Shown: positions 5,103-22,734 of the stretch, piece by piece
Position numbering within the stretch: the stretch's first letter is position 1
Layout: each line of letters opens with the position of its first letter
Source of the DNA: a virus
DNA length: 25,615 nt
Virus record (IMG/VR): IMGVR_UViG_3300036715_000140
Span: 1-25,615 of that record
Reading direction: 5' to 3' (one strand)
Made by a program: the position numbers and the translations under genes
The notes under the pieces: generated by a model
Told to the model about the DNA's origin: nothing
Databases searched by the model: none
The model's input: only the letters and a program-made list of their open reading frames with translations

Positions 5103-5417
<315 letters not shown>

Positions 5418-5882
5418 ATGGCAAAGAAGAAGCAAGTGAAGTCTGATGAAGCTTCGACCCCCGCTGCGGCAGACGCACCGCAAGCACTCGCAACCGCCCC
5501 GGCAGTTGGTGTGCGGGGTCCCAAGGGCGTGGAATTGAGCGCCAAGATCACCATTCTGGCTGCACAGAACCCCAAGCGCCTCGGCAGCAAGGCGCATGCG
5601 GTGTTTTCCAAGTACGTGGACGGCATGACCGTAGAAGCGTTCCTGGAAGCCAACGGCAACGACCCCTACACCACTCCCAACATGGTGTACGATGCCGCGC
5701 ACGGCTTTATCGCCATCGAGGGCTACAGCCCCAAGCTGGTGGAAAAGAAGGAGCCCCGCGTAAAGAAGGAAAAGCCTGTCAAGGTCCCCAAGGCCAAGAA
5801 GGTAAGGGCTGAGAAGACTGAGGAACAGGTTGTAGCCGAGTCCGAGGTTGAGCAGGCTGTGGAAGCCGAGACTATCGACTGA
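5418..5882 (+). CDS. Small basic phage protein of unknown function (lysine-rich tail)
   Basis: A 154-residue protein. I start it at the ATG at 5418, preceded by AAGGAAAG at 5401-5408, because the sequence from here (MAKKKQVKSDEAS) looks like a genuine N-terminus. The same frame is open further upstream into the degenerate gene. After an Ala/Pro-rich linker comes a compact central domain, about residues 31-100. It contains GVRGPKGVELSAKITILA and NPKRLGSKAH, then a VDGMTVEAFLEA stretch that I have seen in other phage hypothetical proteins. The C-terminus is a charged tail of Lys-Pro-Lys repeats followed by an acidic end. The shape suggests a nucleic-acid-binding accessory protein. It lies upstream of the modification genes and is separated from them by a hairpin at 5911-5931. 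Confidence 0.75.
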   Translation: MAKKKQVKSDEASTPAAADAPQALATAPAVGVRGPKGVELSAKITILAAQNPKRLGSKAHAVFSKYVDGMTVEAFLEANGNDPYTTPNMVYDAAHGFIAIEGYSPKLVEKKEPRVKKEKPVKVPKAKKVRAEKTEEQVVAESEVEQAVEAETID

Positions 5883-5944: not shown

Positions 5945-6736
5945 ATGCAAATATTCATTCCGACGATGCGTCGTATTGGTCTCCAGCATACGCTGGAAGA
6001 TCTAACTGGCGCCAGTCCGTACCCCATTACGCTCGTGTGTCCGTATGATGAGTGGGACAACTACTCCGCGGAGTATTCAACTCGTCTTGATGTGAGTACA
6101 GTATCCCCACCCAAGGGCGTTGTGGGCATTGCAGCCACGCGCCAGTGGATCATGGAACAGGCTACTGCGGATCATGTTCTGATGCTGGATGATGACTTGA
6201 CCTTTGCCAAGCGCAGACACGACGAGCCAGAGAAGTTCTGCACCCCCACGAAGGACGATCTTCGTTGGATGCTACAACAGGTCCACGCGCTGCTGCACAA
6301 GTACGCGCACGTGAGCATCGCCACCCGGGAGGGGGGAAACCGCAACACAGAGGAACTACTGCACTGCACCCGGGTAACCCGGGTTATCGGCTACGACAGG
6401 GCCAAGTTCTTCGAGGCGGGCACTGACTTCCGTAGTTCCACTGTGATGGACGATTTTGAAGCCACTCTGCACCTACTCACCCGTGGGTACGAGAACGTGA
6501 TTTTGAACAGCTTTGTGCAGAACCAGCGCGGCAGCGGAACCAAGGGCGGAGCATCTACGTACCGCACACTGGAGATGCACCGGCAGGCAGCCCTGACTCT
6601 GGCGGCGCGCTACCCTAAGTTTGTGCGCGCTGTGCAGAAGCGTACGAAGACCGCATGGGGTGGCGCTGAGCGCACCGACGTCGTCGTACAGTGGAAGAAG
6701 GCCCTGCAATGGGGCAAGGAGCACCATAGTGTCTGA
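5945..6736 (+). CDS. TET/JBP-associated-type glycosyltransferase (TAGT-like), putative DNA base glycosyltransferase
   Basis: A 263-residue GT-A-fold glycosyltransferase. The nucleotide-sugar and metal-binding acidic motif is LMLDDDLTF (Asp82-84). Other conserved-looking blocks are GIAATRQWIM (61-70), STVMDDFEATLHLL (165-178), GTKGGASTYRT (198-208) and a terminal VVVQWKKAL (246-254). These blocks, in this order, resemble the family that Iyer and Aravind described as TET/JBP-associated glycosyltransferases, which are thought to glycosylate hydroxymethylated bases in phage DNA. That assignment is from memory of motif order and needs a profile search. Context supports it, because the next two genes belong to thymine hypermodification families. 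The sugar donor is unknown; ADP-heptose made by the downstream block is a candidate. The end overlaps the next gene by 8 bases. Confidence 0.75.
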   Translation: MQIFIPTMRRIGLQHTLEDLTGASPYPITLVCPYDEWDNYSAEYSTRLDVSTVSPPKGVVGIAATRQWIMEQATADHVLMLDDDLTFAKRRHDEPEKFCTPTKDDLRWMLQQVHALLHKYAHVSIATREGGNRNTEELLHCTRVTRVIGYDRAKFFEAGTDFRSSTVMDDFEATLHLLTRGYENVILNSFVQNQRGSGTKGGASTYRTLEMHRQAALTLAARYPKFVRAVQKRTKTAWGGAERTDVVVQWKKALQWGKEHHSV

Positions 6737-7613
6737 CCATCTAACTGCTGAGCTTGTGTACTGGATTACTGAGCGCTACGCTGTAAAGCTCCGGCGCCAG
6801 GAGGGGCTAGCAAGGCCCTGGAGCGCAGACCGCATTTTCCAGACCGTGCGCTTCTGCAACGTACACCGAGAGGATGATGCTGTAACCCAGTGGATTCGTC
6901 AGAACTGGTCTGATTATCACAGCCCTGCGTGGTGGTTTGTTCTTGGTAGAACGTTGAACTACGTTCCTACTCTGGAAGACATCGTTTTCTATGGAGTAGA
7001 TTCTGTAGACGGTGCTCGCGGCGAGGACTCACTACCGACCTTGGATGGCCTTCGTGATGGTCTTAAGGCCAAGAGAGAAGCAGGAGAAAAGATATTCACC
7101 AGTGCGTACACCATCAGCACATGTGGTAAGAAGATGGACAAGATTGATTACGTGCTAGAGGTAGTCGAGGCAGTAAAGGCCGCGGATGCGATGACCCTAA
7201 CTAGGTTCCCACGAACTACCAGTCTGCAGTCTGCGTGGGAAGACCTACAGGGCATAGACGGCCTTGGCAGTTTCCTGGCCGCACAAGTGGTGGCAGATAT
7301 GAAGAACACCCGGAACCACCCCCTAGCCATGGCCCCGGACTACTGGACGTTCAGTGCCCCTGGCCCCGGCAGCCTGCGCGGTCTGAGCTGGTACTTCTAT
7401 CCGGAGGACATGAAGAATGAGCGTCAATGCGTGACCGCTGGGGGGTACGCTGTAGCGCTTAGAGAGTGTCGTGCAGAGGTTGACCCGCTGGTGGCGGCCT
7501 ACGTGCCGCGCATTTCTGATCAAGATTTCCAAAACTGCCTGTGCGAGTTCAGCAAGTACTGCAAGGTCAAGTACCTGAGCGGGCACGTGCGCAATAAGTT
7601 CCAAGGAGCATGA
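6729..7613 (+). CDS. 5-hmdU DNA kinase/amino-acid:DNA transferase helical-domain family protein (thymine hypermodification)
   Basis: A 294-residue protein of the helical family once called alpha-glutamyl/putrescinyl-thymine pyrophosphorylase, later linked to 5-hydroxymethyl-dU DNA kinases and amino-acid transferases in phages such as ViI, M6, SP10 and phiW-14. Diagnostic blocks are RPWSADRIF with RFCNVHREDD (29-50), FTSAYTIST (123-131), a helix-hairpin-helix-like DGLGSFLAAQVVADM (177-191) and TFSAPGPGSLRGL (207-219). No Walker A/P-loop is visible, so this protein alone is unlikely to be the kinase; it more likely recognises or processes the modified base in DNA. The start is a GTG at 6729 with AAGGAG seven bases upstream, overlapping the glycosyltransferase gene by 8 bases. 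Product-level function is inferred. Confidence 0.8.
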   Translation: MSDHLTAELVYWITERYAVKLRRQEGLARPWSADRIFQTVRFCNVHREDDAVTQWIRQNWSDYHSPAWWFVLGRTLNYVPTLEDIVFYGVDSVDGARGEDSLPTLDGLRDGLKAKREAGEKIFTSAYTISTCGKKMDKIDYVLEVVEAVKAADAMTLTRFPRTTSLQSAWEDLQGIDGLGSFLAAQVVADMKNTRNHPLAMAPDYWTFSAPGPGSLRGLSWYFYPEDMKNERQCVTAGGYAVALRECRAEVDPLVAAYVPRISDQDFQNCLCEFSKYCKVKYLSGHVRNKFQGA

Positions 7614-7616
7614 ATT

Positions 7617-8579
7617 ATGAGCCACATACTGAACGCCACGAATGTGAACCAAGCGTTTAAGGACGCGCTGTGGTGGCTGCGTGCCGCTGGCAAGGAGGAG
7701 CGTAGCCGCAGTGGCCCGGTGCTGGTGGCGCCGGGCACATTCCAAACGCAGTACCACCGTCCCACGGAGCGCGTGCTGTTCAATCCGGACCGAGACTGTA
7801 ATCACGTGTTCCACCTGATGGAAGCTATCTGGATGTTTGCAGGCCGCAAAGATGTCGCGTACCTGCTACCGTTCAACTCCAAGTACAGTAGCTACGCCGA
7901 TAGTGGCGAAGTGCACGGTGCCTACGGCTGGCGCTGGCGGAACAGTTGGGGGGACCAGCTTACGGAAATCGTCAATGTCCTTCGCGCTGACAGATACAGC
8001 CGGCAGGCAGTCCTACAGATGTGGGACTACCACGAAGAGGACTTGACTGGCACGTGGAAGGACCGACCATGCAATACGCACGCGTACTTCGATCTCCGAG
8101 AGGGTGTGCTGAACATGACGGTGTGCTGTCGCAGTAACGACATGCTGTGGGGCGCCTACGGGGCCAACGTGGTGCACTTTAGCATGCTCCAGGAGCTGTT
8201 AGCCTGCGCCCTGGGTGTGCCTGTGGGGGTGTACAGGCAGTTTAGCAACAACTTCCACGTGTACACAGATCTTCCCATGGTCAAGAAGCTGCTGGACACC
8301 CCTCCTGCTGACGACTGGGACCTGTACGCCCGGGGCTTGGTAGCGCCCATCCCGCTGCTGGCACCGCGGGAGGAAATGTCCATGTTCTTGGAGGACTGCC
8401 AGTGGTTCTGTGACGGTAAGCCGCCGCGCACTAGCTTCCTCCGTACGGTGGCGGTCCCTCTGAGGGATGCCTATCTTGCTCGCAAGGCTGGGCAAGCGTG
8501 CGACCTCCGCAGCATACCACACTGCGACTGGAAGGTAGGCTTCGAGTACTGGCTTAAGAACCGGGGGATTGAGAAATGA
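7617..8579 (+). CDS. Thymidylate-synthase-family enzyme, probable dUMP (or dCMP) hydroxymethylase
   Basis: A 320-residue thymidylate-synthase-fold enzyme. The catalytic cysteine is Cys152 in DRPCNTHAYF. The phosphate-binding and substrate segment CRSNDMLWGAYGANVVHF (171-188) is the form seen in phage hydroxymethylases rather than in housekeeping ThyA (RSxDxxLGxPFNxxxY), and NFHVY (212-216) replaces the usual DxHxY. Asn184 occupies the region of the Asn that selects dUMP, whereas dCMP hydroxymethylases usually carry Asp there, so dUMP hydroxymethylase is my first choice. It would make 5-hydroxymethyl-dUMP with methylene-tetrahydrofolate, which the phage would incorporate in place of dTMP. It follows the hmdU-family protein directly (AAGGAG at 7603-7608), and both flanking genes fit a modification cassette. 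dCMP specificity is not excluded. Confidence 0.85.
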   Translation: MSHILNATNVNQAFKDALWWLRAAGKEERSRSGPVLVAPGTFQTQYHRPTERVLFNPDRDCNHVFHLMEAIWMFAGRKDVAYLLPFNSKYSSYADSGEVHGAYGWRWRNSWGDQLTEIVNVLRADRYSRQAVLQMWDYHEEDLTGTWKDRPCNTHAYFDLREGVLNMTVCCRSNDMLWGAYGANVVHFSMLQELLACALGVPVGVYRQFSNNFHVYTDLPMVKKLLDTPPADDWDLYARGLVAPIPLLAPREEMSMFLEDCQWFCDGKPPRTSFLRTVAVPLRDAYLARKAGQACDLRSIPHCDWKVGFEYWLKNRGIEK

Positions 8580-8932
8580 AAGAAGGACACGTAGAACAGG
8601 TCGGCGGCAGTCACTACCAGCGGGGGGATAAGTCCCAGCACTGGGACCTCGTTGCTGAGTACGAGTGGGACTACTTCCAGGCACAGATTATCAAGTACCT
8701 CATGCGGTGGAAGAGCAAGGGCACTACCCGCGCCAAGCGCCTTGAGGATTTGCAAAAGGCACGCAGCTTCCTGGACAAGTACATTCTGCTTGCCAGCGTC
8801 TACGACCAGCGCGAGGACGGCGGCGTACTGCACCCAACTGGGGCACGCGCCACCCCCAGCGCAGCGCAGCAGGAGCCCTCAGGTGCCGCCAGCGGCAGCC
8901 ACCCGGGGCCTGGGTACGTAAACCAGGGCTAG
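8576..8932 (+). CDS. DUF3310 (SaV-like) phage protein, putative nucleotide-kinase-associated
   Basis: A 118-residue protein that starts inside the stop of the hydroxymethylase gene (ATGA). The first 70 residues carry the DUF3310 signature: VGGSHYQ near the N-terminus, a WDLVAEYEWDYFQAQIIKYL helix, and RWKSKGTTRAKRLEDLQKARSFLDKY. The family is widespread in phages and is loosely annotated as a nucleotide kinase of unknown specificity, but I see no P-loop here. The C-terminal 40 residues are a low-complexity Ala/Pro/Gly tail that looks disordered. Coupling to a dNMP-modifying enzyme suggests a role in nucleotide supply; this is inference. Confidence 0.85.
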   Translation: MKEGHVEQVGGSHYQRGDKSQHWDLVAEYEWDYFQAQIIKYLMRWKSKGTTRAKRLEDLQKARSFLDKYILLASVYDQREDGGVLHPTGARATPSAAQQEPSGAASGSHPGPGYVNQG

Positions 8933-9236: not shown

Positions 9237-9436
9237 TCAAGATATTCAACAGATTCCAGCCCACTCTAGTGGACGAAGTAGCTCGCCAACTGCGAGAGAT
9301 GGAATTCCAAGCGCTGGACGCAGCTCGTCACAAGGAGCACTACGCCGCCTTGGAGATTGCGGCTACACAGGGCATTGGCAGGCTACGTGCACAGTTCAAC
9401 AAGCTGACGGCTACAAAGGGAGCGCAGGATGCCTAA
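9233..9436 (+). CDS. Small helical hypothetical protein
   Basis: A 67-residue protein starting at the ATG at 9233 within the previous stop. The sequence is almost all amphipathic helix (TLVDEVARQLREMEFQALDA through LEIAATQGIGRLRAQF), with no cysteines or catalytic-looking motifs. I do not recognise it. The end overlaps the heptose kinase start by 8 bases, so it is translationally coupled to the ADP-heptose genes. It may be only a passenger in the transcript. Confidence 0.6.
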   Translation: MIKIFNRFQPTLVDEVARQLREMEFQALDAARHKEHYAALEIAATQGIGRLRAQFNKLTATKGAQDA

Positions 9437-10325
9437 GATCTTAGTGCTGGGGGACACAATGCTGGACGTAGCGTACGTGGGCCAGTGTACACGGGTCAGC
9501 CCAGAGGCTCCCGTACCCATCTTGTCTGTGCTGAGCAGGCACAATTACGCGGGCGGAGCGGCCAACGTCGCACTGAATCTCCGTGCCATGGGGGCGGACG
9601 TCACTATTGTGCATGCCTGTGGAGTGGATCCGGCTGGCAAGCTGCTGCACCGCATGCTCACAGCAGCAGGAGTGCGCAGCTTGCAGGCCGCCACAGAGCG
9701 CACAACCACCAAGACTCGTGGGTTTGTGGACCACCGCCAGGTATTCCGGTTTGACGAAGACAACCCCGCAAGCGCTCCCACGGCCAGAGAGTGTATGGCA
9801 CAGGCGGCGGGGCTGCTTGCCAGCCACGACGCGCTAGCGATTGCTGACTATGGCAAGGGCGTCACTGACTACCTGGGTACTGCTTTAATACAGCAGGCGT
9901 ACGACGAACACAAGCCTGTCTATGTGGATCCGCATGGTCATGACTGGGACAAGTATGCGGGTGCCCTGGTGATAAAGGCCAACGAGCACGAGGTTGCCGA
10001 CTGCTTGCAGTATGACGAGGATGCTGTCACGCGCATTCGCGCTAGACATCTTGTTGTGACCATGGGAAAGCATGGGTCTAAGCTCGTGACACGAGAGTCG
10101 GATCACCTGTACCCCGCCCCCAACGCGCTGCACGACTGCGACCCCACGGGTGCGGGGGATAGCTTCTTCGCACAGATGGTGCTGGCACACGTGGATGGCA
10201 ACCCCTGGCCCGTGGTGATGCGCCGCGCCAATGTGGCCGGCATGCTGGCAGCGCGGCAGCGCGGCATCGCGGTCATTTCTGAACGAGACATTAAGGAGTA
10301 TCTGGATGAAAACGACTCTGTCTGA
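9429..10325 (+). CDS. hldA: D-glycero-beta-D-manno-heptose-7-phosphate kinase (HldA / HldE kinase domain)
   Basis: A 298-residue PfkB/ribokinase-fold kinase closely resembling the N-terminal domain of HldE (RfaE). It would phosphorylate D-glycero-D-manno-heptose-7-phosphate to the 1,7-bisphosphate. Diagnostic features are VLGDTMLD at residues 5-12, the heptose-kinase-specific RVSPEAPVP, the substrate loop YAGGAANVALNL, ADYGKGV, YVDPHGHDWDKYAGA, and the PfkB signature DPTGAGDSF with the catalytic base Asp244. The SPEAPVP motif separates heptose kinases from ordinary ribokinases. The length fits a stand-alone kinase, with the adenylyltransferase encoded separately two genes downstream; such split HldA/HldC forms occur in several beta-proteobacteria. 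The start at 9429 overlaps the preceding gene by 8 bases, and the end overlaps gmhA by 20. Confidence 0.92.
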   Translation: MPKILVLGDTMLDVAYVGQCTRVSPEAPVPILSVLSRHNYAGGAANVALNLRAMGADVTIVHACGVDPAGKLLHRMLTAAGVRSLQAATERTTTKTRGFVDHRQVFRFDEDNPASAPTARECMAQAAGLLASHDALAIADYGKGVTDYLGTALIQQAYDEHKPVYVDPHGHDWDKYAGALVIKANEHEVADCLQYDEDAVTRIRARHLVVTMGKHGSKLVTRESDHLYPAPNALHDCDPTGAGDSFFAQMVLAHVDGNPWPVVMRRANVAGMLAARQRGIAVISERDIKEYLDENDSV

Positions 10326-10896
10326 CACCCTTGCTGAGCTAGATAAGCAAGTGGAGCACCTTGTATCTGTTCTTCGCACCACGAGCGATCAATCCACTGT
10401 GGTTGGTTCCATGCTGCACGCGCTGTACACGTGTCTGCAGACAGGGGGGACCGTCTACTTCTGCGGTAATGGGGGTAGCGCTGCGGACTGCCAGCACCTA
10501 GCCGCAGAGATGATGGGTAGGTTCAAGGATCATCGTCGATACGGATGGCCCGCCGTATCTCTAACGACCGATACATCCGTACTTACCGCCATAGCCAACG
10601 ACTATGGCTACGAGCACGTGTTTGAGCGCCAGGTGCAGGTACTGTGTGGTCCGGCGGACGTGCTGGTGTGTATGAGTACTTCTGGGACTAGCAAGAATGT
10701 TCTACTCGCTGCGGAAGCTGCCCGCAGGAACGAGTCCACTGTTCTTGCATTCACGGGGCATGGCGGAAGTGCCCTGGCCGCGCTGGCACACACCACGCTG
10801 ATAGTACCTAGTACTGACACCGCGCGTATCCAGGAAGCGCACATATTCATCGGTCACGTGTTGTGCGGTCTGCTTGAGGAGGAGCTAGCGCAATGA
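10306..10896 (+). CDS. gmhA: Sedoheptulose-7-phosphate isomerase (GmhA)
   Basis: A 196-residue SIS-domain isomerase that converts sedoheptulose-7-phosphate to D-glycero-D-manno-heptose-7-phosphate, the first step of ADP-heptose synthesis; the length is normal for GmhA (about 192). Recognition features are FCGNGGSAADCQHLAAE (residues 52-68), STSGTSKNVLLAA for phosphate binding (124-136), and RIQEAHIFIGHVLC (174-187). His64, Glu68, Gln176 and His184 match the His-Glu-Gln-His zinc set of E. coli GmhA. I chose the ATG at 10306 because AAGGAG lies seven bases upstream (10293-10298). It overlaps the kinase gene by 20 bases, and its own stop overlaps the next start (ATGA). Confidence 0.92.
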   Translation: MKTTLSDTLAELDKQVEHLVSVLRTTSDQSTVVGSMLHALYTCLQTGGTVYFCGNGGSAADCQHLAAEMMGRFKDHRRYGWPAVSLTTDTSVLTAIANDYGYEHVFERQVQVLCGPADVLVCMSTSGTSKNVLLAAEAARRNESTVLAFTGHGGSALAALAHTTLIVPSTDTARIQEAHIFIGHVLCGLLEEELAQ

Positions 10897-11306
10897 TCAA
10901 GATCGCATTCACCAACGGGTGCTTTGACCTCCTGCACGCGGGACATGTACAGTTCCTGCAGAAGTGTGCAACGCTGTGCGATGAACTGCACATCTTCCTT
11001 AATGAGGATGTCTCCGTAGCTAGACTAAAAGGCACTGGCAGGCCCATAGCGCCCCTAGAGCAGCGCAGGACGATGGTGCTTGCGGTGGTTCCTACGGCGG
11101 TGCTACGCGGGTTCCAAGAAGACAACCCGCTTAACCGTATGATACAGTGCGGAGTTACTCCAGATCTGTACATAAAGGGCGGAGATCTAAATCTCAAGAG
11201 CCCAGAAGTTGAGTGGTTCATGCAGCAGGGGGTGCCCGTGGTACTGGTGCCTAGAACGCTGGACATAAGCACTTCCCGCATCATCGGAAAGATCAAAAAT
11301 GGATAA
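10893..11306 (+). CDS. hldC: D-beta-D-heptose-1-phosphate adenylyltransferase (HldC / HldE C-terminal domain)
   Basis: A 137-residue nucleotidyltransferase of the cytidylyltransferase fold, matching the C-terminal domain of HldE. It would join ATP and heptose-1-phosphate to give ADP-D-glycero-beta-D-manno-heptose. Key motifs are FTNGCFDLLHAGH with the catalytic HxGH (His15, His18), RLKGTGRPIAPLEQR, the substrate motif YIKGGDLNLKSPEV, and STSRIIGKI near the C-terminus, equivalent to the usual STTxII. The ATG at 10893 overlaps the gmhA stop. It is a separate polypeptide, not fused to the kinase as in E. coli. The specific motifs (KGGD, PLEQR) point to the heptose enzyme rather than to glycerol-3-phosphate cytidylyltransferase. 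Confidence 0.92.
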   Translation: MIKIAFTNGCFDLLHAGHVQFLQKCATLCDELHIFLNEDVSVARLKGTGRPIAPLEQRRTMVLAVVPTAVLRGFQEDNPLNRMIQCGVTPDLYIKGGDLNLKSPEVEWFMQQGVPVVLVPRTLDISTSRIIGKIKNG

Positions 11307-11787
11307 GGCTCTATTTCTAGATCGAGACGGTACGCTGATCTTCGATCAAGGCTACATTGGGGACCCTGCGTACGTGCGCTTGCTGCCGGGCGTGGTGCAG
11401 CAGCTACGCCTAGCCGCTGCTGCGGGCTTCCTGCTGTTAGTGGTGACTAACCAGAGCGGCGTGGGACGAGGCAAGTTTACTAGACACCAAGCTGCACTAG
11501 TGCAGTCCCGGTTCTTAGATCTTTTGGAGAAGGAGGGGGTAGAACTAGATGGCTACTACGCCTGCTACCACGCACCAGAAGACGGCTGCCAGTGCCGTAA
11601 GCCGGCCCCTGGGCTGCTGCGGCTTGCCGCTGAGGATTACGAAATAGACTTCCGTAAGTCTATTATCGTAGGAGACCACGAGAATGATGTGGGGGTGACT
11701 GAACACTTCCCTGGATTGATGGCGTACCGGGTACTCAAGAATGAGCCGTGGGAACTATTTGCCGCCCCGCTGGCTACTACCCCCTAG
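11299..11787 (+). CDS. gmhB: D,D-heptose 1,7-bisphosphate phosphatase (GmhB)
   Basis: A 162-residue HAD-family phosphatase that removes the 7-phosphate from heptose-1,7-bisphosphate. It shows HAD motif I LDRDGTL (Asp8, Asp10), motif II VTNQSGVGRGKF (the GmhB/histidinol-phosphatase form), the zinc loop with Cys89, His91, Cys97 and Cys99, CRKPAPG with the motif III Lys101, and motif IV GDHENDV (Asp126, Asp130). The zinc loop is a few residues shorter than I would expect in the bacterial enzyme. It starts within the end of hldC (8-base overlap) and is the last rightward gene. With the previous three genes it completes ADP-D-glycero-D-manno-heptose synthesis. HldD, the 6-epimerase, is not encoded in this window. 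Confidence 0.9.
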   Translation: MDKALFLDRDGTLIFDQGYIGDPAYVRLLPGVVQQLRLAAAAGFLLLVVTNQSGVGRGKFTRHQAALVQSRFLDLLEKEGVELDGYYACYHAPEDGCQCRKPAPGLLRLAAEDYEIDFRKSIIVGDHENDVGVTEHFPGLMAYRVLKNEPWELFAAPLATTP

Positions 11788-11837: not shown

Positions 11838-13154
11838 CTACTTGTACTGGCAGTGCAGCGCGTAGCCCAGCGCATGCAGCGCGGGGAGCTGAGTCCTCAG
11901 TTCCTCGCCGACATCATCACGGACAATGGGGTTGGCAACATGCAGTTTTTCCACAGTGCCATAGGCGCGCTTAGCCGCCTGACTCACGCTAGCCCCGTAA
12001 CCCGTGATAACTGCCACGTAGTCCCCAGCGGTGGCCCACATTTCTCTCTCCACAATTCCCTTACCGTCCGGTCCCTGGTCCGGCAACTTCATAATCTGTA
12101 CGGCCTGTGGGTGGACGTGTATAGCTGTGCCCTTCGTCACCCCATACACTGGCACCCCGCTGACTTGCTTCTTGGTGAAGTTCCCATGCGGAAAGTCCCC
12201 GTGAGCAAGCACCAAGCAGCAGCCGATGTCTTCAGAGAATGTGGTAGTGTCTTTACCCTGGAGCGCGTCCCGCATCCACTCCACGGGATCACCCTTCGTA
12301 GCACCGAGCATCATGTTTGCTATGGGCCAGCCCAAGCGGCAGGTCCATTCCGTGGGCCAGGGCTTGCCCTTGTCGTCAATCATAAAGCCCAGTGCGGTGT
12401 CCCCCCGGTGCCCACGCTTGAGCAGCTCGTCCTCCAGCTTACCGAGCGTGTCACGGCCGAGCTTGGACTGCTCTGTGAAGTACGCGATGGTCCCCATCTC
12501 TCCGGTATTTGGGCCATAGTTACTAGACATCAGCTTCTTATGCTCGAAGCTCTCGTTCCACTGACCTACCCAGCCCTTACTGCCCATAAAGCGGGACACG
12601 CCCATTTCAATCCCCTTGACGAACTGCTGTAGCATCACCTCCCCCTTGGGTGGGGGCGTGCGGCGCATCCAGGCAACAAGGTCCGCAGGGCTCTTGGAAA
12701 CGTAAGTCAGGCTCTTGTCTTCATTGTCTCCCAACGTCTTGAATACGTACCGCTCTTCAGTCTTGAGTACGTGCTTCTCCGCTGCGGCCATGCTAGGAAA
12801 CGTCTGATACGGAACGCACTCGATCCCCGCCTTCTCAAGAATCTGCATTCCGTCCTTGCGAGAAATTTCCAGCTTGGCGCTGGCCGGCGTGGGGGCGAAT
12901 ACGGGGTAGCCCTTCTTGCTGAAGAACTCTAGACGTTCCAGATAGTCATCATTGCTGGTAGCAATGACTAGGTCCGCCCAGCCCATGCTGGGAACCCAGT
13001 TATCTACCTTGGCGATGTTCTTGAACCCCTTGCCGATGTCTTTGCTGTTAGACTCTCGCGGCTTAACGAACCAGCGCACTTGGTGCCCAGCATCACGTGC
13101 ACGGATTGCAAAGCTGAGACCTACACCGTCATGATCAATTATTAGCAGCTTCAT
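11838..13154 (-). CDS. PurD-like ATP-grasp ligase (phosphoribosylamine-glycine-ligase family), substrate unknown
   Basis: A 438-residue ATP-grasp enzyme with PurD-like order: a diverged N-terminal domain (MKLLIIDHDGVGLSFA), an ATP-grasp domain from about residue 95, VMLQQFVKGIEMGVS (173-187), YGPNTGEMGT (213-222; PurD has GPNTGGMG), PTEWTCRLGWP (267-277; PurD has EfNxRfGDPE) and a PurD-like C-terminal domain. The glycine-rich ATP loop is altered (FKTLGDNEDKSL in place of a GKGV type), and the RfGDPE motif has lost its acidic residues, so true purine synthesis is doubtful. It is the last gene of the leftward virion transcript and overlaps the preceding ejection-protein gene by 20 bases, with GAGGAG upstream of its ATG. 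It may ligate an amino acid to a nucleotide, base, sugar or protein; that is speculation. Confidence 0.75.
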   Translation of the reverse strand: MKLLIIDHDGVGLSFAIRARDAGHQVRWFVKPRESNSKDIGKGFKNIAKVDNWVPSMGWADLVIATSNDDYLERLEFFSKKGYPVFAPTPASAKLEISRKDGMQILEKAGIECVPYQTFPSMAAAEKHVLKTEERYVFKTLGDNEDKSLTYVSKSPADLVAWMRRTPPPKGEVMLQQFVKGIEMGVSRFMGSKGWVGQWNESFEHKKLMSSNYGPNTGEMGTIAYFTEQSKLGRDTLGKLEDELLKRGHRGDTALGFMIDDKGKPWPTEWTCRLGWPIANMMLGATKGDPVEWMRDALQGKDTTTFSEDIGCCLVLAHGDFPHGNFTKKQVSGVPVYGVTKGTAIHVHPQAVQIMKLPDQGPDGKGIVEREMWATAGDYVAVITGYGASVSQAAKRAYGTVEKLHVANPIVRDDVGEELRTQLPALHALGYALHCQYK

Positions 13155-17919: not shown

Positions 17920-18324
17920 CTACTGGGTGCGATACCAAGTGGTGTTTGCCTTATTGAACACGTAGCTAACTGCCTGCCCAGCAGTCAGCGTGGCGGGGGC
18001 ATTCTTAACTGTGTAGCCGGCTGGATCCGTGAGCGTAAACGCAGTCACTGACTGAGTAGTAGTTATCTGTATCTGGCGCTGGTCTCTAGGGGCAGCGGGC
18101 AGCACAGCGGTGCCCACAGCATAGGCGGCCACGGGGTCCAGAATAAGGATGCCCGTACTGCTGCCAATCTGATAGCTGAACCCGCTAGCGCTGGGGGCCT
18201 GATACTCTGTAATTCCGTAGAACTGCGTGTTCAGAAGAACATTGAACGCTTGATTCAGCCACCGCAGCCACGGCGTGTAGGTGGGATCCTGTGGCAGACT
18301 CTTGTAGGGTGGAGATTCAATCAT
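17920..18324 (-). CDS. Small tail-block protein with a beta-rich C-terminal domain (P22 gp26 position)
   Basis: A 134-residue protein. The start is set at the ATG at 18324 because GGAGG lies six bases upstream, giving an 8-base overlap with the gp10-like gene; a longer form beginning at 18345 lacks support. The N-terminal 40 residues (SLPQDPTYTPWLRWLNQAFNVLL) look like an interaction helix. The rest is beta-rich (IQITTTQSVTAFTLTDPAGY, then ATLTAGQAVSYVFNKANTTWYR), a pattern that I have seen at the ends of head- and tail-associated phage proteins. In gene order it replaces P22 gp26, the tail needle, but it lacks the long coiled coil of a needle. I leave the function open. Confidence 0.65.
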   Translation of the reverse strand: MIESPPYKSLPQDPTYTPWLRWLNQAFNVLLNTQFYGITEYQAPSASGFSYQIGSSTGILILDPVAAYAVGTAVLPAAPRDQRQIQITTTQSVTAFTLTDPAGYTVKNAPATLTAGQAVSYVFNKANTTWYRTQ

Positions 18325-19768
18325 CCGCAGCCTCCACCTCTGCACTTCCGCCAGAGATTACGAACTTTACCGGGTCAGTGACTACGATTCTTACAACGAA
18401 GTCCCTTGCTGCTCCAAGACGGTTGAACACTACTCGAGTGAGGTATGACGCGGCTGCGCCAAGGCTCTTAGTCTTCGCTACTCCGAAGGTATTGCCCCCA
18501 TCCCGGCTGACGTTGATCGTCACCGTGGGGTTGGGAGCAGCCCCGTTGCCCACGCCGGTTTCGAAGTCTAGCATTAGCTGAGAAAGAAACACCTCGTTCC
18601 CATTCGCACGAATGTGCCGGGTGCAGGCTTCTCTTCGGATGCCAGTGCCGTTTTCTGTGTACACAGCCTCGTCTATCTTGTAGATACGGCCAGTAGAGAA
18701 GTCAGCAGCTAGCCGGGCGACAGTAGCCACTCCGTACTGACTAACCCAACGCCAAAACTGATACGCATAGCTGGTAGACAGACCGCTCTGCGCCTCGTGC
18801 CACATACCAGATGAATGATCGTATGCCAGTGTGCGATTCGCCGACTGAAACGTGAAGTGCGTAATGGCATGACCTAGAGTCATGTACGTTGTCACGGTAC
18901 AGTCATTAATTCTAGACAAGGAAGACAGAATGGAATCTATGTCCGACGTGCTGATGGGAACCGGGGTATATCCATTCAGCTTGAATATGCGAATTTCTCC
19001 CTCTGCACCCTTTCCCAGGAACACCAGAGTATTGACCGCGTACCCCACTCCCTCTCTAGAAATGAGACCCACATGCTGGGTAGCCCCCGTCACGCGCTGG
19101 TAGGGTAGGGGTGAAGATCCTACATCTTGCCAAACCTCAAGCGTATCTTCTCCGAACAGCACTAGTGCGCCGTTCATCTCCATCACTCGGACCAGTGGAT
19201 CCCCAGAGGATTCCTTAGTGCCGAAAATTACGGGCGTCCATGTCTGGAAGTCTAGCTGAGCACTGACGTAGAACGTCCTAGATCCTAGCTTGGACAAGAT
19301 GACTCGACTGTCCAGGTTAGTTAGAGAATTGATGTATCCACCAGATGGGCCGGCAGGGAAGTTGACATCTGTAACCGTCAAGAACACCCCGGTAGATGGG
19401 GTGTACGTGTACCCGTGGTCTCCGAACCCGTCCGACGAAACGATGCAGAGCTGAAGACCATTGTCGGTCATGAACACTACACTGTTAGAAGACCCGAGGC
19501 CCGTGCGCAGCGTAGTGTAGCTGGAATCAGACAGAGAAAACAGAGTGGTCCCCGCTACGGCGTACACGTTCCCCTGGAAGCGATACATGCACTTCACAGG
19601 AGCGTCCGGCAGAGTATAGATAAGCGAGCAGCCGGGAGTACCCACCAAGATGATCGAGGACCTGTCTCCATCCGGACGAATGTCATAGATGCAGTTCAGC
19701 CTACGCTGCGCAGTGGCAAGAGTAGAGTAACTCTTTACTCCAGTACCGAACAGCGGAATCTGCTTCAT
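18317..19768 (-). CDS. Packaged DNA stabilization / tail hub protein, P22 gp10-like
   Basis: A 483-residue protein, close to the 472 residues of P22 gp10. It begins MKQIPLFGTGVKSYSTLATAQRRLNCIYD, comparable to the gp10 start in which a short loop is followed by an LPVN-type strand. The body is beta-rich and repetitive, with blocks such as GNVYAVAGTTLFSL, NGALVLFGEDTLEVWQDVG and VNTLVFLGKGAEGEIRIF, consistent with the beta-propeller-like fold of gp10. The protein plugs the portal vertex and links it to the tail needle. Its ATG overlaps the stop of the gp4-like gene. The order gp4-gp10 supports the call strongly; sequence similarity is moderate by eye. Confidence 0.8.
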   Translation of the reverse strand: MKQIPLFGTGVKSYSTLATAQRRLNCIYDIRPDGDRSSIILVGTPGCSLIYTLPDAPVKCMYRFQGNVYAVAGTTLFSLSDSSYTTLRTGLGSSNSVVFMTDNGLQLCIVSSDGFGDHGYTYTPSTGVFLTVTDVNFPAGPSGGYINSLTNLDSRVILSKLGSRTFYVSAQLDFQTWTPVIFGTKESSGDPLVRVMEMNGALVLFGEDTLEVWQDVGSSPLPYQRVTGATQHVGLISREGVGYAVNTLVFLGKGAEGEIRIFKLNGYTPVPISTSDIDSILSSLSRINDCTVTTYMTLGHAITHFTFQSANRTLAYDHSSGMWHEAQSGLSTSYAYQFWRWVSQYGVATVARLAADFSTGRIYKIDEAVYTENGTGIRREACTRHIRANGNEVFLSQLMLDFETGVGNGAAPNPTVTINVSRDGGNTFGVAKTKSLGAAASYLTRVVFNRLGAARDFVVRIVVTDPVKFVISGGSAEVEAADD

Positions 19769-20721
19769 TCTTCAGCTCCCGGTTGGAAGAATAGCTCTGT
19801 GTTCTCAGACCCCTGGTTCCTAGCGATAGCAATCGCGCTATTCTTCAACTGTTCCATCTTCTGGCTCCAGCTGGACTTGAACATGGGAGAAATCTGTTCA
19901 CTGAGTCCCCAGCACAGAGCCAAGTACCACTCCTGGGGGTAGTATGGCGTATCCCCTGCGGCATTGAAGTCCTGCACTGGTTCCAGGTAGGTGATCACGA
20001 TGTGCTTAGACACATCTTGCGCACCGCCACAGTCAGTGTACACAGTGGCAGAAGAAATTCCGCGCTCGTAGTAGATGGCCGTGGGATCACTGATGTTAGT
20101 GGGGTCTACCTTGTTGGGGAGGTAGTCGTACGACTGTACTGTCATCAGCTTAAGCTGGGTGTCCGTCTGGTCGGAGTCCCGAAGCAGCGCGGTCTCTACG
20201 TGTACAGGAACCTGCGCCGCAGTCTGGTACACGAAAGCTGAATTCCCACTACTGGCCTGACTAGGCAGAGCCCCCACAAGGTTGACCACACTGCCAACAA
20301 CTGAGGACACGGTAGTCCAGTAGATAATCCCGCTATCCAGCTCTACGCCGATAGCATACGTACTGGCGATGCCCGTTACGCTGCTCACAGCCACCGAAGT
20401 AGCCGCCGCTGCGGACGCCACAGTCAGCGTAGGATAGACGTAGCTGTTGGTCCAGCCAGTGGCGCTGGGGCCAACTGTGTACGCCCCAGTGTTCCCCTGC
20501 AGAAACAGATGGCCCCGTTTGCGTGTCCACACCTTTAGCCCAGGCGCGAAGTCAGCCTTGCCCATCCACTGCTTGCACATCAGATTCAGCACCCGTGCGC
20601 AGTCCGAAGTTTCTGACGTCGTAGGGCTCTCGTCTGGGTCCAGCCGCTGAATATTCAGCATGGCCTGACGGATAATGTCGTCACGAGTGACGGTGAAGCT
20701 GTATGTGCCGCTGGTAGTCAT
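19765..20721 (-). CDS. Tail accessory / head-completion adaptor protein (P22 gp4 position)
   Basis: A 318-residue protein starting at the ATG at 20721, inside the stop of the FkbM-like gene (ATGA). The N-terminus (SFTVTRDDIIRQAMLNIQRLDPDESPTTSE, then CARVLNLMCKQWM) is the helical adaptor segment common to podovirus tail accessory proteins. It is followed by a beta-rich insert (residues about 80-170, many Ser/Thr/Val) and a C-terminal helical part (YYPQEWYLALCWGLSEQISPMF). Such proteins form the ring joining portal and tail. It is larger than P22 gp4 (166 residues) because of the beta insert, and it has no visible lysozyme-like catalytic motif. The assignment rests on N- and C-terminal pattern and position. 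Confidence 0.75.
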   Translation of the reverse strand: MTTSGTYSFTVTRDDIIRQAMLNIQRLDPDESPTTSETSDCARVLNLMCKQWMGKADFAPGLKVWTRKRGHLFLQGNTGAYTVGPSATGWTNSYVYPTLTVASAAAATSVAVSSVTGIASTYAIGVELDSGIIYWTTVSSVVGSVVNLVGALPSQASSGNSAFVYQTAAQVPVHVETALLRDSDQTDTQLKLMTVQSYDYLPNKVDPTNISDPTAIYYERGISSATVYTDCGGAQDVSKHIVITYLEPVQDFNAAGDTPYYPQEWYLALCWGLSEQISPMFKSSWSQKMEQLKNSAIAIARNQGSENTELFFQPGAEE

Positions 20722-21200
20722 TGCGCATACTCCATACCTGGAAACAGGTCCGTAGTCACTGGTGCCAGCCACTCCACCGGCAGCCCGTGGGGGACGCACA
20801 GCATATTCAAAGACCCAACGCCAGGGAATACGTCCACTGGGTTGTCCGCATGGATGTCCAGGTCTGCGCAGCCAAGTTCTCCGTCTACATCTCCTACGGC
20901 AATCTGCAAAGGAGTCACGTTGTACAGACTATTCAGCGCCAGGGTGCCGCGCAGGGCGTTCATTACCATGCGCTGCGGCTCCACCGCGCAGACGTGCGCG
21001 GCACGCTTGGCGAACACCAGAGTATGCGCGCCGAAGTTAGCCCCAATGTCTGCGACTACCATGCCCGGTTGGACGATAGCGTCAAACAGCCCCACCTCTC
21101 CCTCCGAGAATTCTCCATACTCCACCAAGCTGCGGCCAAGGTAGCGGTCAGTGCTGGGGACGATAATCCGTCCGTGCCTAGAATCGACGACGGTAATCAT
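20718..21200 (-). CDS. FkbM-type SAM methyltransferase, C-terminally truncated
   Basis: A 160-residue protein starting at the ATG at 21200, with GGAG six bases upstream. The Rossmann SAM-binding motif VVADIGANFGAHTLVFAK (48-65), the CAVEPQ acidic loop (71-76) and LNSLYNVTPLQIAVGD (89-104) identify an FkbM-family O-methyltransferase, usually acting on sugars or glycans. Full FkbM domains continue with a TLD...IKIDVEGxE segment carrying catalytic residues. Here the frame stops at about the TLD position (PVTTDLFPGMEYAQ), so the last 50-80 residues are missing. The stop is an ATGA overlap with the gp4-like gene. It may be inactive or repurposed. Its pairing with the GT9 fusion suggests glycan modification. 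Confidence 0.8.
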   Translation of the reverse strand: MITVVDSRHGRIIVPSTDRYLGRSLVEYGEFSEGEVGLFDAIVQPGMVVADIGANFGAHTLVFAKRAAHVCAVEPQRMVMNALRGTLALNSLYNVTPLQIAVGDVDGELGCADLDIHADNPVDVFPGVGSLNMLCVPHGLPVEWLAPVTTDLFPGMEYAQ

Positions 21201-22734
21201 TAAGCGCTCCACTGATGGCGGCCCACGCTTGGTCCACCGTAATGTCTGCTTGGCACTGCGCGGTGCCCGTGGCAGGGTCTCGCTTGCAGTGCTCCCAGCC
21301 ATAGTGTAGCACGTGGCAGGCGGGGGCAGTGTCGTTACCCCGGCCAGGGCACACCGTACCCACGGAAGTCAGCGGGTACACGTTGGTCCAGTCTCGCGTC
21401 AGGTTCTCGTGTGTAGAATGACTGAGGAACACCACCTTGGGCATGGGCATACAGGCCGCAGCGTTGAGTACGCCAGTCTCAGGTCCAATTACGAGATCAC
21501 ACTCTTCTAGGAATGACAGCGTCTGACGAATGGTCCACTCACCTGACTTGCATATCACACGCTTTTCCTGCTCCCAGCCGGCTTCTAGCATCTTGCATTC
21601 CGGTCCACCGGCCAGCACCACGCGGCAATGCGGGTACTCTAGCATTAGCGCGGCCAGCACGTGGTCCAGCCCAGCCCACGTCTTGTGCACGGAACTACCG
21701 GCCAGGGACCAGAGAATAACCTGCTCCCCACCCATGCGCTGCCGTTGCTGGCGTGCCCATGCCTTTTCCTCCACGGTAGCGTAAAACTTAACGGCCAGCC
21801 TGTAGGGCACCTCGGCAATAGCGTGCTGCATCTCTACGTAGTTCTTGTCAGTGAGCAGGTGGCGGACCCGTGGGGGGTAGAAGTGTAGGGTACGCCCAGG
21901 CATGGCGAGGAATGTGCCCTCCACTGACTCACTGAGGTTTACGAACTTAGTGAACTTCTTCCGCTGCCAGTTCCAGAAGTCCACCAGGTTCCCATTGGGC
22001 ACCTGGTCCTTGTCGAAGAGAACATGCTTGTCGACGTTGGGATCATTAGCCACAGCGTCAGAGCCCGGCAGACTAGAGAACAGAGTTACGTGGTAGCCCT
22101 CGGACTTAAGTGCTGCGAACACACTGCTGGCCTGCATCAGATCACCAAACGCGCCGTACCGCACCACACACGCAGTCTTTTCTGGTCTGGGGTCCAGGTA
22201 GCTAGCCTTCCGTTCCTTGCCCTGTAGCTTCTGCACCACGAGCAGGAAGCTGTATTCCTGGTTTTCGTTCCGCTCTTGGCACTCCAGCACATCGTGCCCA
22301 TTGGGGAGCATTGCGATGACGTCAGCAGGTAGAAAATCGTGCTTGTGGTCTGGATTGCAGCCCCTGGTGCCTATGTTGGGGTAGAACAGCTTGTGCGGCA
22401 GGTACAAAACCAAGTAGCCCCCGTGCCGTAGCACGCGCCACCACTCTCGTACGGCTCCAGCAGCGTCCTCGATGTGCTCCAGCGTATGACTGGAGTACAC
22501 AAAATCCATGGACTGGCTACCAAATACGTCTAGCTTAGCGGCGTCGCACAGTACGTCGGGCCTAGTCTGGAACCCGAACGCCGCATGGTGCATGTTATCT
22601 ACCGTGGTGGCGTGGGGCAGAATGCGGAAGTCTCCAGCCCCAATATCAAGCCCCCTACCCTTGAGGTAGGGGGCTACTTCCCACACGATCTTCTTAGATT
22701 CGTTGCACTGCGGGTCGTCAATTTTCCATACCAT
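21178..22734 (-). CDS. Fusion of SAM methyltransferase and GT9 (ADP-heptose:LPS heptosyltransferase-like) domains
   Basis: A 518-residue two-domain protein. Residues 1-170 are a class I methyltransferase: GLDIGAGDFRIL (28-39), the acidic VTVDN strand end, HTLEHIED (83-90) and WWRVLRHGGYLVLYLPH. Residues 187-515 resemble glycosyltransferase family 9: VVRYGAFGDLMQASSVFAALK (split at 190-210), a nucleotide-side loop LWSLAGSSVHKTW (341-353), VVLAGGPE, and DLVIGPETGVLNAAACMPMPKV (413-434). In classical heptosyltransferases the last block reads D-T/S-G-x-x-H; here it is ETGVLN, so two usual residues are changed. GT9 enzymes transfer heptose from ADP-heptose, which this phage appears able to make. 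The acceptor is unknown. It lies between the tail spike and tail genes. Confidence 0.85.
   Translation of the reverse strand: MVWKIDDPQCNESKKIVWEVAPYLKGRGLDIGAGDFRILPHATTVDNMHHAAFGFQTRPDVLCDAAKLDVFGSQSMDFVYSSHTLEHIEDAAGAVREWWRVLRHGGYLVLYLPHKLFYPNIGTRGCNPDHKHDFLPADVIAMLPNGHDVLECQERNENQEYSFLLVVQKLQGKERKASYLDPRPEKTACVVRYGAFGDLMQASSVFAALKSEGYHVTLFSSLPGSDAVANDPNVDKHVLFDKDQVPNGNLVDFWNWQRKKFTKFVNLSESVEGTFLAMPGRTLHFYPPRVRHLLTDKNYVEMQHAIAEVPYRLAVKFYATVEEKAWARQQRQRMGGEQVILWSLAGSSVHKTWAGLDHVLAALMLEYPHCRVVLAGGPECKMLEAGWEQEKRVICKSGEWTIRQTLSFLEECDLVIGPETGVLNAAACMPMPKVVFLSHSTHENLTRDWTNVYPLTSVGTVCPGRGNDTAPACHVLHYGWEHCKRDPATGTAQCQADITVDQAWAAISGALNDYRRRF

Follow-up and report, generated by a model that had tools for sequence, protein, structure and literature searches.

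The 25,615-nucleotide stretch of viral DNA analyzed here (IMG/VR record IMGVR_UViG_3300036715_000140, hereafter the window) carries four overlapping genes that together resemble a bacterial route to ADP-heptose, an activated sugar that normally goes into the outer coat of bacteria, and this raises the question of what a phage would do with the product. Heptose genes as such are already known in cyanophages and in Caulobacter phage Cr30. The first-pass annotation had concluded that the phage needs its own supply of the sugar nucleotide; this conclusion is partly supported, in that the pathway genes are there, but it overlooked a neighboring DNA-hypermodification cluster and a fusion protein, here called MT-GT9.

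The heptose cassette

The cassette occupies 9429-11787 on the + strand, and its genes overlap in order by 20, 4, and 8 bp, which resembles the arrangement in translationally coupled operons. The HldA-like gene (9429-10325, 298 aa; PF00294) has as its top NCBIfam match the HldA domain TIGR02198 (206.8 bits, E = 4e-61; equivalog cut-off 345) and as its top PDB match the heptose 7-phosphate kinase 4e84 (E = 1.7e-29). The GmhA-like SIS-domain protein, a putative sedoheptulose-7-phosphate isomerase (10306-10896, 196 aa), matches phosphoheptose isomerase PRK13936 best (185.7 bits, 8e-55; cut-off 276), scores 171.8 bits against TIGR00441, and has the phosphoheptose isomerases 2xbl (E = 1.8e-45), 1tk9, and 2x3y as its top PDB matches; its mechanical ORF runs from 10231, and the ATG at 10306 lies behind AAGGAG. 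The HldC-like putative heptose-1-phosphate adenylyltransferase (10893-11306, 137 aa) matches TIGR02199 HldC (112.3 bits, 2e-32; cut-off 181.5), with the putative cytidylyltransferase 5x9q first among PDB entries and 3glv, an "LPS core biosynthesis protein," lower in the list. The GmhB-like protein, a putative HAD-type heptose-1,7-bisphosphate 7-phosphatase (11299-11787, 162 aa), matches PRK08942 GmhB (132.2 bits, 2e-38; cut-off 178) and the GmhB structures 3l8e (E = 1e-24) and 2gmw. None of the four reaches its curated equivalog cut-off, and for this reason we call them "-like."

Motifs that we take to be the catalytic sites were located in all four: GGAAN and TGAGD (HldA), GNGGSAAD, QHLAAE, and QEAH (GmhA), HAGH, KGGD, and ISTSRI (HldC), and DRDGT, TNQSG, C-x-H...C-x-C-RKP, and GDHEND (GmhB). 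They are retained with small changes in L013, the relative that is nearest in the polymerase-TAGT region, even though its cassette proteins are only 32-48% identical to those of the window (32% for HldA). The presence of four heptose-pathway homologs with their motifs kept is confirmed, at the level of sequence, to lie far beyond chance. Thus the gene content, the intact motifs, and the coverage of all four steps claimed in the first-pass annotation stood up to the HMM and structure searches that it had proposed: all four enzyme families appear to be represented, and the best curated match of every protein is the family expected for its step of the pathway.

The predicted activities and their reaction order are those of the bacterial ADP-glycero-manno-heptose pathway (GmhA, HldE or HldA plus HldC, GmhB, HldD). 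Unlike that pathway, the genes here are phage-encoded, HldA and HldC are separate, no LPS genes lie alongside, and an HldD-type epimerase (PF01370) was found in none of 21 records (control 14/14). Because the epimerase was not found, the expected end product would be ADP-D,D-heptose. Cyanophages P-SSM2 and S-CAM1 also carry genes of the HldC and HldA types together with a gene annotated as an isomerase, and in Cr30 a heptokinase and a phosphoheptose isomerase are annotated alongside a glycosyltransferase of family 2; these proteins are about 28-33% identical to those of the window. The cyanophage sets differ in lying near tail-fiber and carbamoyltransferase genes, and in the stretches of cyanophage and Cr30 sequence covered, GmhB is not annotated and no hypermodification cluster adjoins the heptose genes.

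Cassette carriers and origin

Nine further IMG/VR records (ten with the window) have the complete cassette at the corresponding slot, between phage replication genes and virion genes, and the carriers keep the order PolA-exo-helicase-GT-aGPT-HMase-DUF3310-cassette. Because several carriers nearly duplicate one another (L117/L118/L132; L121/L122), these counts overstate the number of independent events. Relatives were recovered with alignment queries; HldC and HldA used singly as queries against IMG/VR gave no matches. In the GmhA tree (145 of 161 rows kept after removal of fragments and duplicates) the proteins of seven carriers form a single clade apart from the bacterial rows, and the trees suggest two origins, that is, two gains or replacements at one slot. 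We reject bacterial contamination, given this separate clade and the phage genes for replication and for the virion on either side of the cassette. A survey of 80 bacterial loci showed no prophage carrying the cluster.

A thymidine-hypermodification cluster upstream

Immediately upstream, on the same strand and in the same operon, lies a thymidine-hypermodification cluster. Its first member is a TAGT glycosyltransferase (5945-6736; PF20691, 60.4 bits against a cut-off of 27.5; phrog_842), a candidate DNA glycosyltransferase whose DxD-type motif LDDDL is invariant in four relatives. An aGPT-PPlase1/HMUDK_hel protein follows (6621-7613; PF18723, 124.3 bits against a cut-off of 25), probably starting at the GTG at 6729; it has relatives in Pseudomonas phage M6 and in Pam3. 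Next come a thymidylate-synthase-like pyrimidine hydroxymethylase (7617-8579; PF00303, phrog_5131) and a small DUF3310/nucleotide-kinase-like protein (8576-8932); in most relatives the latter lies ahead of the cassette slot. The base-specificity position of the hydroxymethylase is an asparagine (N184), invariant in the alignment, so dUMP rather than dCMP is its expected substrate. By homology, the hydroxymethylase and aGPT-PPlase1/HMUDK_hel constitute the pair expected of a thymidine-hypermodification cluster.

M6-type clusters likewise have the thymidylate-synthase-like enzyme next to aGPT-PPlase1, and passages of PMC9599517 describe pelagiphage clusters that also include a TAGT-type gene. 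The window differs from both in its added heptose cassette, and an M6/Pam3-type P-loop kinase was not found in it, the window being a fragment; the Pam3 kinase query matched one of 14 records (G085). Since this cluster adjoins the cassette, it is a second possible consumer of ADP-heptose.

A methyltransferase-GT9 fusion in the virion operon

The earlier statement that the cassette lies "without LPS core genes beside it" holds for the immediate neighbors, but the window as a whole contains a protein of the GT9 heptosyltransferase family. This is MT-GT9 (21178-22734, - strand, in the virion operon), an N-terminal methyltransferase domain (Methyltransf_11, PF08241, 44.1 bits) joined to a GT-B domain of the heptosyltransferase type. 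In a structure model of pLDDT 71 the best PDB fold match is the E. coli ADP-heptose:LPS heptosyltransferase II WaaF (1psw, E = 1.2e-13, TM 0.67 by target), followed by the GT9 protein 3tov and, lower, the protein heptosyltransferase TibC (4rap/4rb4). The modeled C-terminal domain thus looks like GT9, with solved GT9 heptosyltransferases as its closest folds. Its score against PF01075 (20.1 bits) is under the cut-off of 22, which weighs against a role in heptose transfer.

MT-GT9 resembles WaaF and TibC/AAH (BAHT) in its GT-B fold match and in an Asp and a Lys in its motifs RYGAFGD and SSVHKTW; a further motif is GPETG. It differs from WaaF and TibC in its methyltransferase domain. The BAHT family is marked by a four-cysteine iron finger and a dodecameric ring; MT-GT9 has four C-terminal cysteines (462, 473, 483, and 494), but they are spaced unlike those of TibC (339/342/358/370). 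There are 476 MT-GT9 relatives in IMG/VR. Two of its neighbors in the window recur beside MT-GT9 in relatives: a virion gene (19765-20799, -; phrog_12985) in 78 of 80 loci and head closure Hc3 (18317-19768, -) in 70 of 80. A Methylococcaceae match (L361) was rejected as support, as it covers the methyltransferase part only; its neighbors look by eye like a GDP-heptose set.

Co-occurrence of the cassette with MT-GT9

All nine cassette carriers of the window's lineage with records of at least 25 kb (the window, G001, G051, G052, G055-G058, and G079 (= L213/L285)) encode MT-GT9; the two carriers that lack it are pieces of 15.8 and 17.8 kb. Of the sampled TAGT records that lack the complete cassette, one of 49 has MT-GT9 (50 of 80 TAGT loci were used, mostly longer contigs), and the association is significant when kinship is ignored (Fisher p = 0.0024, 51 records). 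A GmhA-type gene was found in none of the 48 TAGT records without MT-GT9.

A separate lineage (L161/L164/L166/L188) has MT-GT9 (39-40%) directly before HldA-HldC, which in L188 form one HldE-like 495-aa ORF. There MT-GT9 lies, by eye, downstream of a capsid-like gene, GmhA is 5-6 kb upstream, and PF18723 and TAGT are absent from the records.

The converse survey, for PF18723, GmhA, and TAGT around MT-GT9, used 28 of 80 fusion loci, mostly on contigs near or above 19 kb. In the MT-GT9 lineage the cassette is present in nine of 13 records with PF18723 and in none of 24 without it, and those 24 records, many of them fragments, have no GmhA-type gene; this favors a tie between the cassette and the DNA-modification cluster and speaks against MT-GT9 as its partner. 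A cassette gene is absent from 79 of the 80 kept MT-GT9 loci, so most such phages may manage without one, using host ADP-heptose or another donor.

Possible uses of the ADP-heptose

We consider the chances about even that the cassette supplies MT-GT9, which would heptosylate, and perhaps methylate, a component of the virion. ADP-D,D-heptose would then be consumed mainly by the phage's own MT-GT9, which would move the heptose onto a protein of the particle, or onto some other late acceptor, and possibly O-methylate its target; donor use, acceptor, and methyl target are all inferred. The reading is built on the set of genes present, their domain and fold matches, the co-occurrence of cassette and MT-GT9, the recurrent virion-operon neighbor, and the second lineage with MT-GT9 beside HldE. 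According to passages of PMC4358343, the natural donor of TibC is ADP-D,D-heptose. If the reading is true, hundreds of phages own an enzyme of the heptosyltransferase type with a phage-specific acceptor, and a few of them supply the whole donor pathway as well; the decoration could conceal the particle or adjust how it adsorbs.

Two further observations run against a link to MT-GT9. The cassette lies in an early/middle operon by DNA-modification genes, away from MT-GT9, and four records (G011, G072, G081, and G085) have MT-GT9 and PF18723 but not the full cassette.

The main rival, which we regard as rather unlikely, is that TAGT, or the GT-B-like ALT305 that replaces it in some carriers, uses ADP-heptose to place heptose on 5-hydroxymethyl-deoxyuridine-derived phage bases as a shield against restriction; if so, the sugar would be new to DNA. 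It would account for the shared strand, operon, and conserved order, for the cassette's restriction to PF18723 records within the MT-GT9 lineage, and for two gains or replacements at one slot, and DNA modification would presumably demand much donor. Passages of PMC13390438 offer a precedent in RB69-type arabinosylation, where putative sugar-donor genes lie by DNA glycosyltransferases, although there arabinose is on cytosine and the window would need heptose on a uracil-type base; no heptose modification of a hydroxymethyluracil-derived base was found in the literature searched. We place it lower because TAGT phages mostly lack the cassette, because the slot glycosyltransferases differ, and because of the MT-GT9 link. 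TAGT fills the slot in seven of ten carriers, as two distant types, and ALT305 in three (L119:5886-6803; L146:4257-5165; L285:4594-5499); because the model of ALT305 is of low quality (pLDDT 57), we treat its fold search with caution. In addition, G072 has a carrier-like TAGT yet, of the cassette, only GmhB, and the TAGT of T2/T6 adds glucose (passages of PMC13216743).

It is less probable still that the phage tops up host ADP-heptose to keep the LPS core intact, or alters LPS for superinfection exclusion, with host LPS or LPS precursors as the target of MT-GT9. The missing epimerase argues against this, as heptosyltransferases of LPS work with the L,D form, though the host could supply that form; MT-GT9 also adjoins a virion-operon gene, and no further LPS genes were seen in the window. 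The WaaF-like fold fits such a role, and marine viromes contain LPS-type viral auxiliary genes including waaF and rfaE (passages of PMC10653327 and PMC7029224).

Finally, the sub-cut-off scores and the low HldA identity to L013 might mean that the four enzymes have drifted from sedoheptulose 7-phosphate to another sugar phosphate and make a different nucleotide sugar for phage glycosyltransferases, but this is very improbable, as heptose-pathway families are the best match for all four, the motif residues are retained, and the full set stays together in ten records.

The heptose cassette and neighboring genes

The first-pass annotation described four overlapping ADP-heptose biosynthesis genes with intact motifs at 9429–11787, and both points hold. 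An HldA-like gene (9429–10325) overlaps a GmhA-like gene (10306–10896), which overlaps an HldC-like gene (10893–11306), which in turn overlaps the last of the four, a GmhB-like gene (11299–11787); all four proteins match heptose-pathway families (Pfam, NCBIfam and PDB), and the motifs that we take to belong to each enzyme are found in its sequence. The GmhA-like gene starts at the ATG at 10306, which is preceded by AAGGAG, and not at 10231. All four proteins score under the curated NCBIfam equivalog cut-offs and are accordingly called "-like" here; in a PHROGs search GmhB had no match and the other three fell mostly into unnamed families. Cyanophages and Caulobacter phage Cr30 provide precedent for heptose genes in phages, and LPS genes of viruses have been reported as auxiliary genes (PMC10653327 and PMC7029224).

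Upstream, on the same strand, lie DNA polymerase, exonuclease and helicase genes and then, in order, TAGT (PF20691, a glycosyltransferase), aGPT-PPlase1/HMUDK_hel (PF18723, here aGPT), a thymidylate-synthase-like protein and a DUF3310 protein. Base specificity in thymidylate-synthase-like enzymes follows an Asn/Asp rule; the window's protein has Asn at the position that is Asn in thymidylate synthase and Asp in the PDB CMP 5-hydroxymethylase, so judging by this residue its substrate is likely a uracil base. The upstream genes make up a thymidine-hypermodification cluster of the type found in M6-like phages and in pelagiphages (PMC9599517). The opposite strand carries virion genes (head closure, short tail fibre, DNA ejection), a PurD-like ATP-grasp gene, a GDSL lipase and the fusion gene discussed below. 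The PurD-like gene (11838–13154, minus strand) is at the end of the virion operon; its TIGR00877 match is far under the cut-off, and it is present in many relatives with identity up to 84% (G072). Inside the ORF at 5103–5882 are 8.5 perfect copies of CGTG (5246–5279); such tetranucleotide arrays can slip, switching the reading frame. The 25,615-base IMG/VR record may be a fragment.

Carriers of the cassette

A TAGT profile scan found 212 relatives (80 kept), and in most kept loci the TAGT, aGPT and thymidylate-synthase-like hydroxymethylase genes occur together. In the 50 of these 80 records that were searched whole there is, besides the window, an HldC match in five and a GmhA-type SIS domain in one (G001). 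A GmhA profile scan (95 relatives, 80 kept) and a scan with ALT305, a protein of about 305 aa discussed below, place the full cassette in the same slot after DUF3310 in L013 (the same genome as L123 and G001), L117, L118, L119, L121, L122, L132, L146 and L285 (G079); L120 has a cassette piece that begins within HldA. A GmhA tree with 145 rows, whose bootstrap is not fully settled, puts the window and six other carriers in one clade (100/89) and L146 and L285 in another (100/99). The carrier label requires two changes on this tree, which points to two separate gains or replacements at the same site, either of the whole cassette or at the least of GmhA. One relative (L289:8225–8701; G072) has only a GmhB-like gene in the slot, HldA, GmhA and HldC being absent; it may be what is left of a cassette that was lost.

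The methyltransferase–glycosyltransferase fusion

The minus-strand gene at 21178–22734 encodes a methyltransferase fused to a glycosyltransferase-family-9 domain (Pfam), here MT-GT9; its PF01075 match, at 20.1 bits, is slightly under the cut-off of 22. The top PDB match of an AlphaFold2 model (8-sequence alignment, pLDDT 71) is E. coli ADP-heptose LPS heptosyltransferase II, followed by another GT9 and, lower, by the protein heptosyltransferase TibC, some entries having ADP-D,D-heptose. Its motifs are RYGAFGD (residue 192), SSVHKTW (347) and GPETG (417), and D198, K351, E419, T420 and G421 are among the invariant positions in alignment A6. IMG/VR holds 476 relatives; in the 80 kept loci it is neighbored by a gene of the 19765–20799 type in 78 and of the 18317–19768 type in 70.

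In six carriers (G001:10697–12726, G051, G052 and G055–G057) several hundred bases part the methyltransferase and GT9 pieces, with a TGA inside the match in some; an inserted domain, two genes and a frameshift are the candidates. A small methyltransferase-like ORF (20718–21302, minus strand; phrog_8156) is flanked by MT-GT9 and the next virion gene; a 55% relative of this ORF lies directly upstream of TAGT in L039, and weaker relatives (30–31%) lie about 1.9–2.4 kb upstream of GmhA in L158, L162, L173, L186 and L189.

Proposed use of the heptose

In the best-supported mechanism the cassette would make ADP-D,D-heptose, which would supply MT-GT9, and MT-GT9 would act on a virion component; we give this an even chance of being correct. 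Donor and acceptor are inferred, and so are the task of the methyltransferase domain and even the catalytic activity of the cassette's four enzymes. A literature search, mostly without subscription papers, found none on a phage methyltransferase–heptosyltransferase fusion or on phage ADP-heptose with DNA modification.

MT-GT9 is present in all nine carriers with records of at least 25 kb (the window, G001, G051, G052, G055, G056, G057, G058 and G079, the last having come to light via MT-GT9 itself) and was not seen in carriers G053 (17.8 kb) and G054 (15.8 kb). Among 51 records compared, the cassette occurs in two of the three with MT-GT9 and in none of the 48 without it (Fisher p 0.0024, kinship not corrected for); four of the 48 have an HldC-like match without GmhA. 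In a second lineage (L161, L164, L166 and L188, a biased sample, since these loci were picked up via GmhA), an MT-GT9 relative (39–40%) directly precedes HldA–HldC, which is a single 495-aa ORF in L188; GmhA is 5–6 kb upstream and the genes around look structural. PF18723 and PF20691 are absent from the records G062–G064, G066 and G069, three of which are shorter than 13 kb. In this lineage the donor genes accompany MT-GT9, with no DNA-modification cluster seen.

The NAD-dependent epimerase PF01370 was found in none of 21 records and in 14 of 14 control genomes, and the D,D form is therefore the expected product. The natural ligand of TibC is ADP-D,D-heptose (PMC4358343). The epimerase result is supportive only, because the host may supply the epimerase.

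The strongest rival, and the boldest reading, is heptosylation of the phage DNA, which we consider rather unlikely. The T2/T6 TAGT puts a glucosyl group on DNA (PMC13216743), and RB69-type phages have DNA arabinosyltransferases beside putative arabinose-donor genes (PMC13390438). The cassette occurs in 9 of the 13 records with both PF18723 and MT-GT9, and a GmhA-type gene in none of the 24 MT-GT9 records without PF18723, a contrast that counts against MT-GT9 as the consumer and favors a tie to the modification cluster; in that 28-record sample the difference (1/4 vs 0/24) is not significant (p 0.14). Against this stands the glycosyltransferase of the modification cluster. Three carriers (L119, L146 and L285) have, instead of TAGT, ALT305 between helicase and aGPT; the family (L119:5886–6803, L146:4257–5165, L285:4594–5499 and L286:9983–10807) is near aGPT in all four loci found. 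The L119 and L146 proteins have no Pfam or PHROG match, and a poor model (pLDDT 57) matches mostly GT-B glycosyltransferases, with unrelated proteins mixed in; on this model ALT305 is GT-B-like and a candidate new DNA glycosyltransferase. The TAGTs of the remaining carriers are of two distant types (window and L013; L117, L121 and L132), unlike the polymerase and helicase, which group these phages closely. The glycosyltransferase in this position has therefore changed repeatedly among phages that all keep the cassette, which makes a donor-specific tie between the two less likely.

One phage with MT-GT9 and neither TAGT nor cassette (G085) has an M6/Pam3-type P-loop kinase (L287:8172–8750) adjoining aGPT, and is a natural comparison genome.
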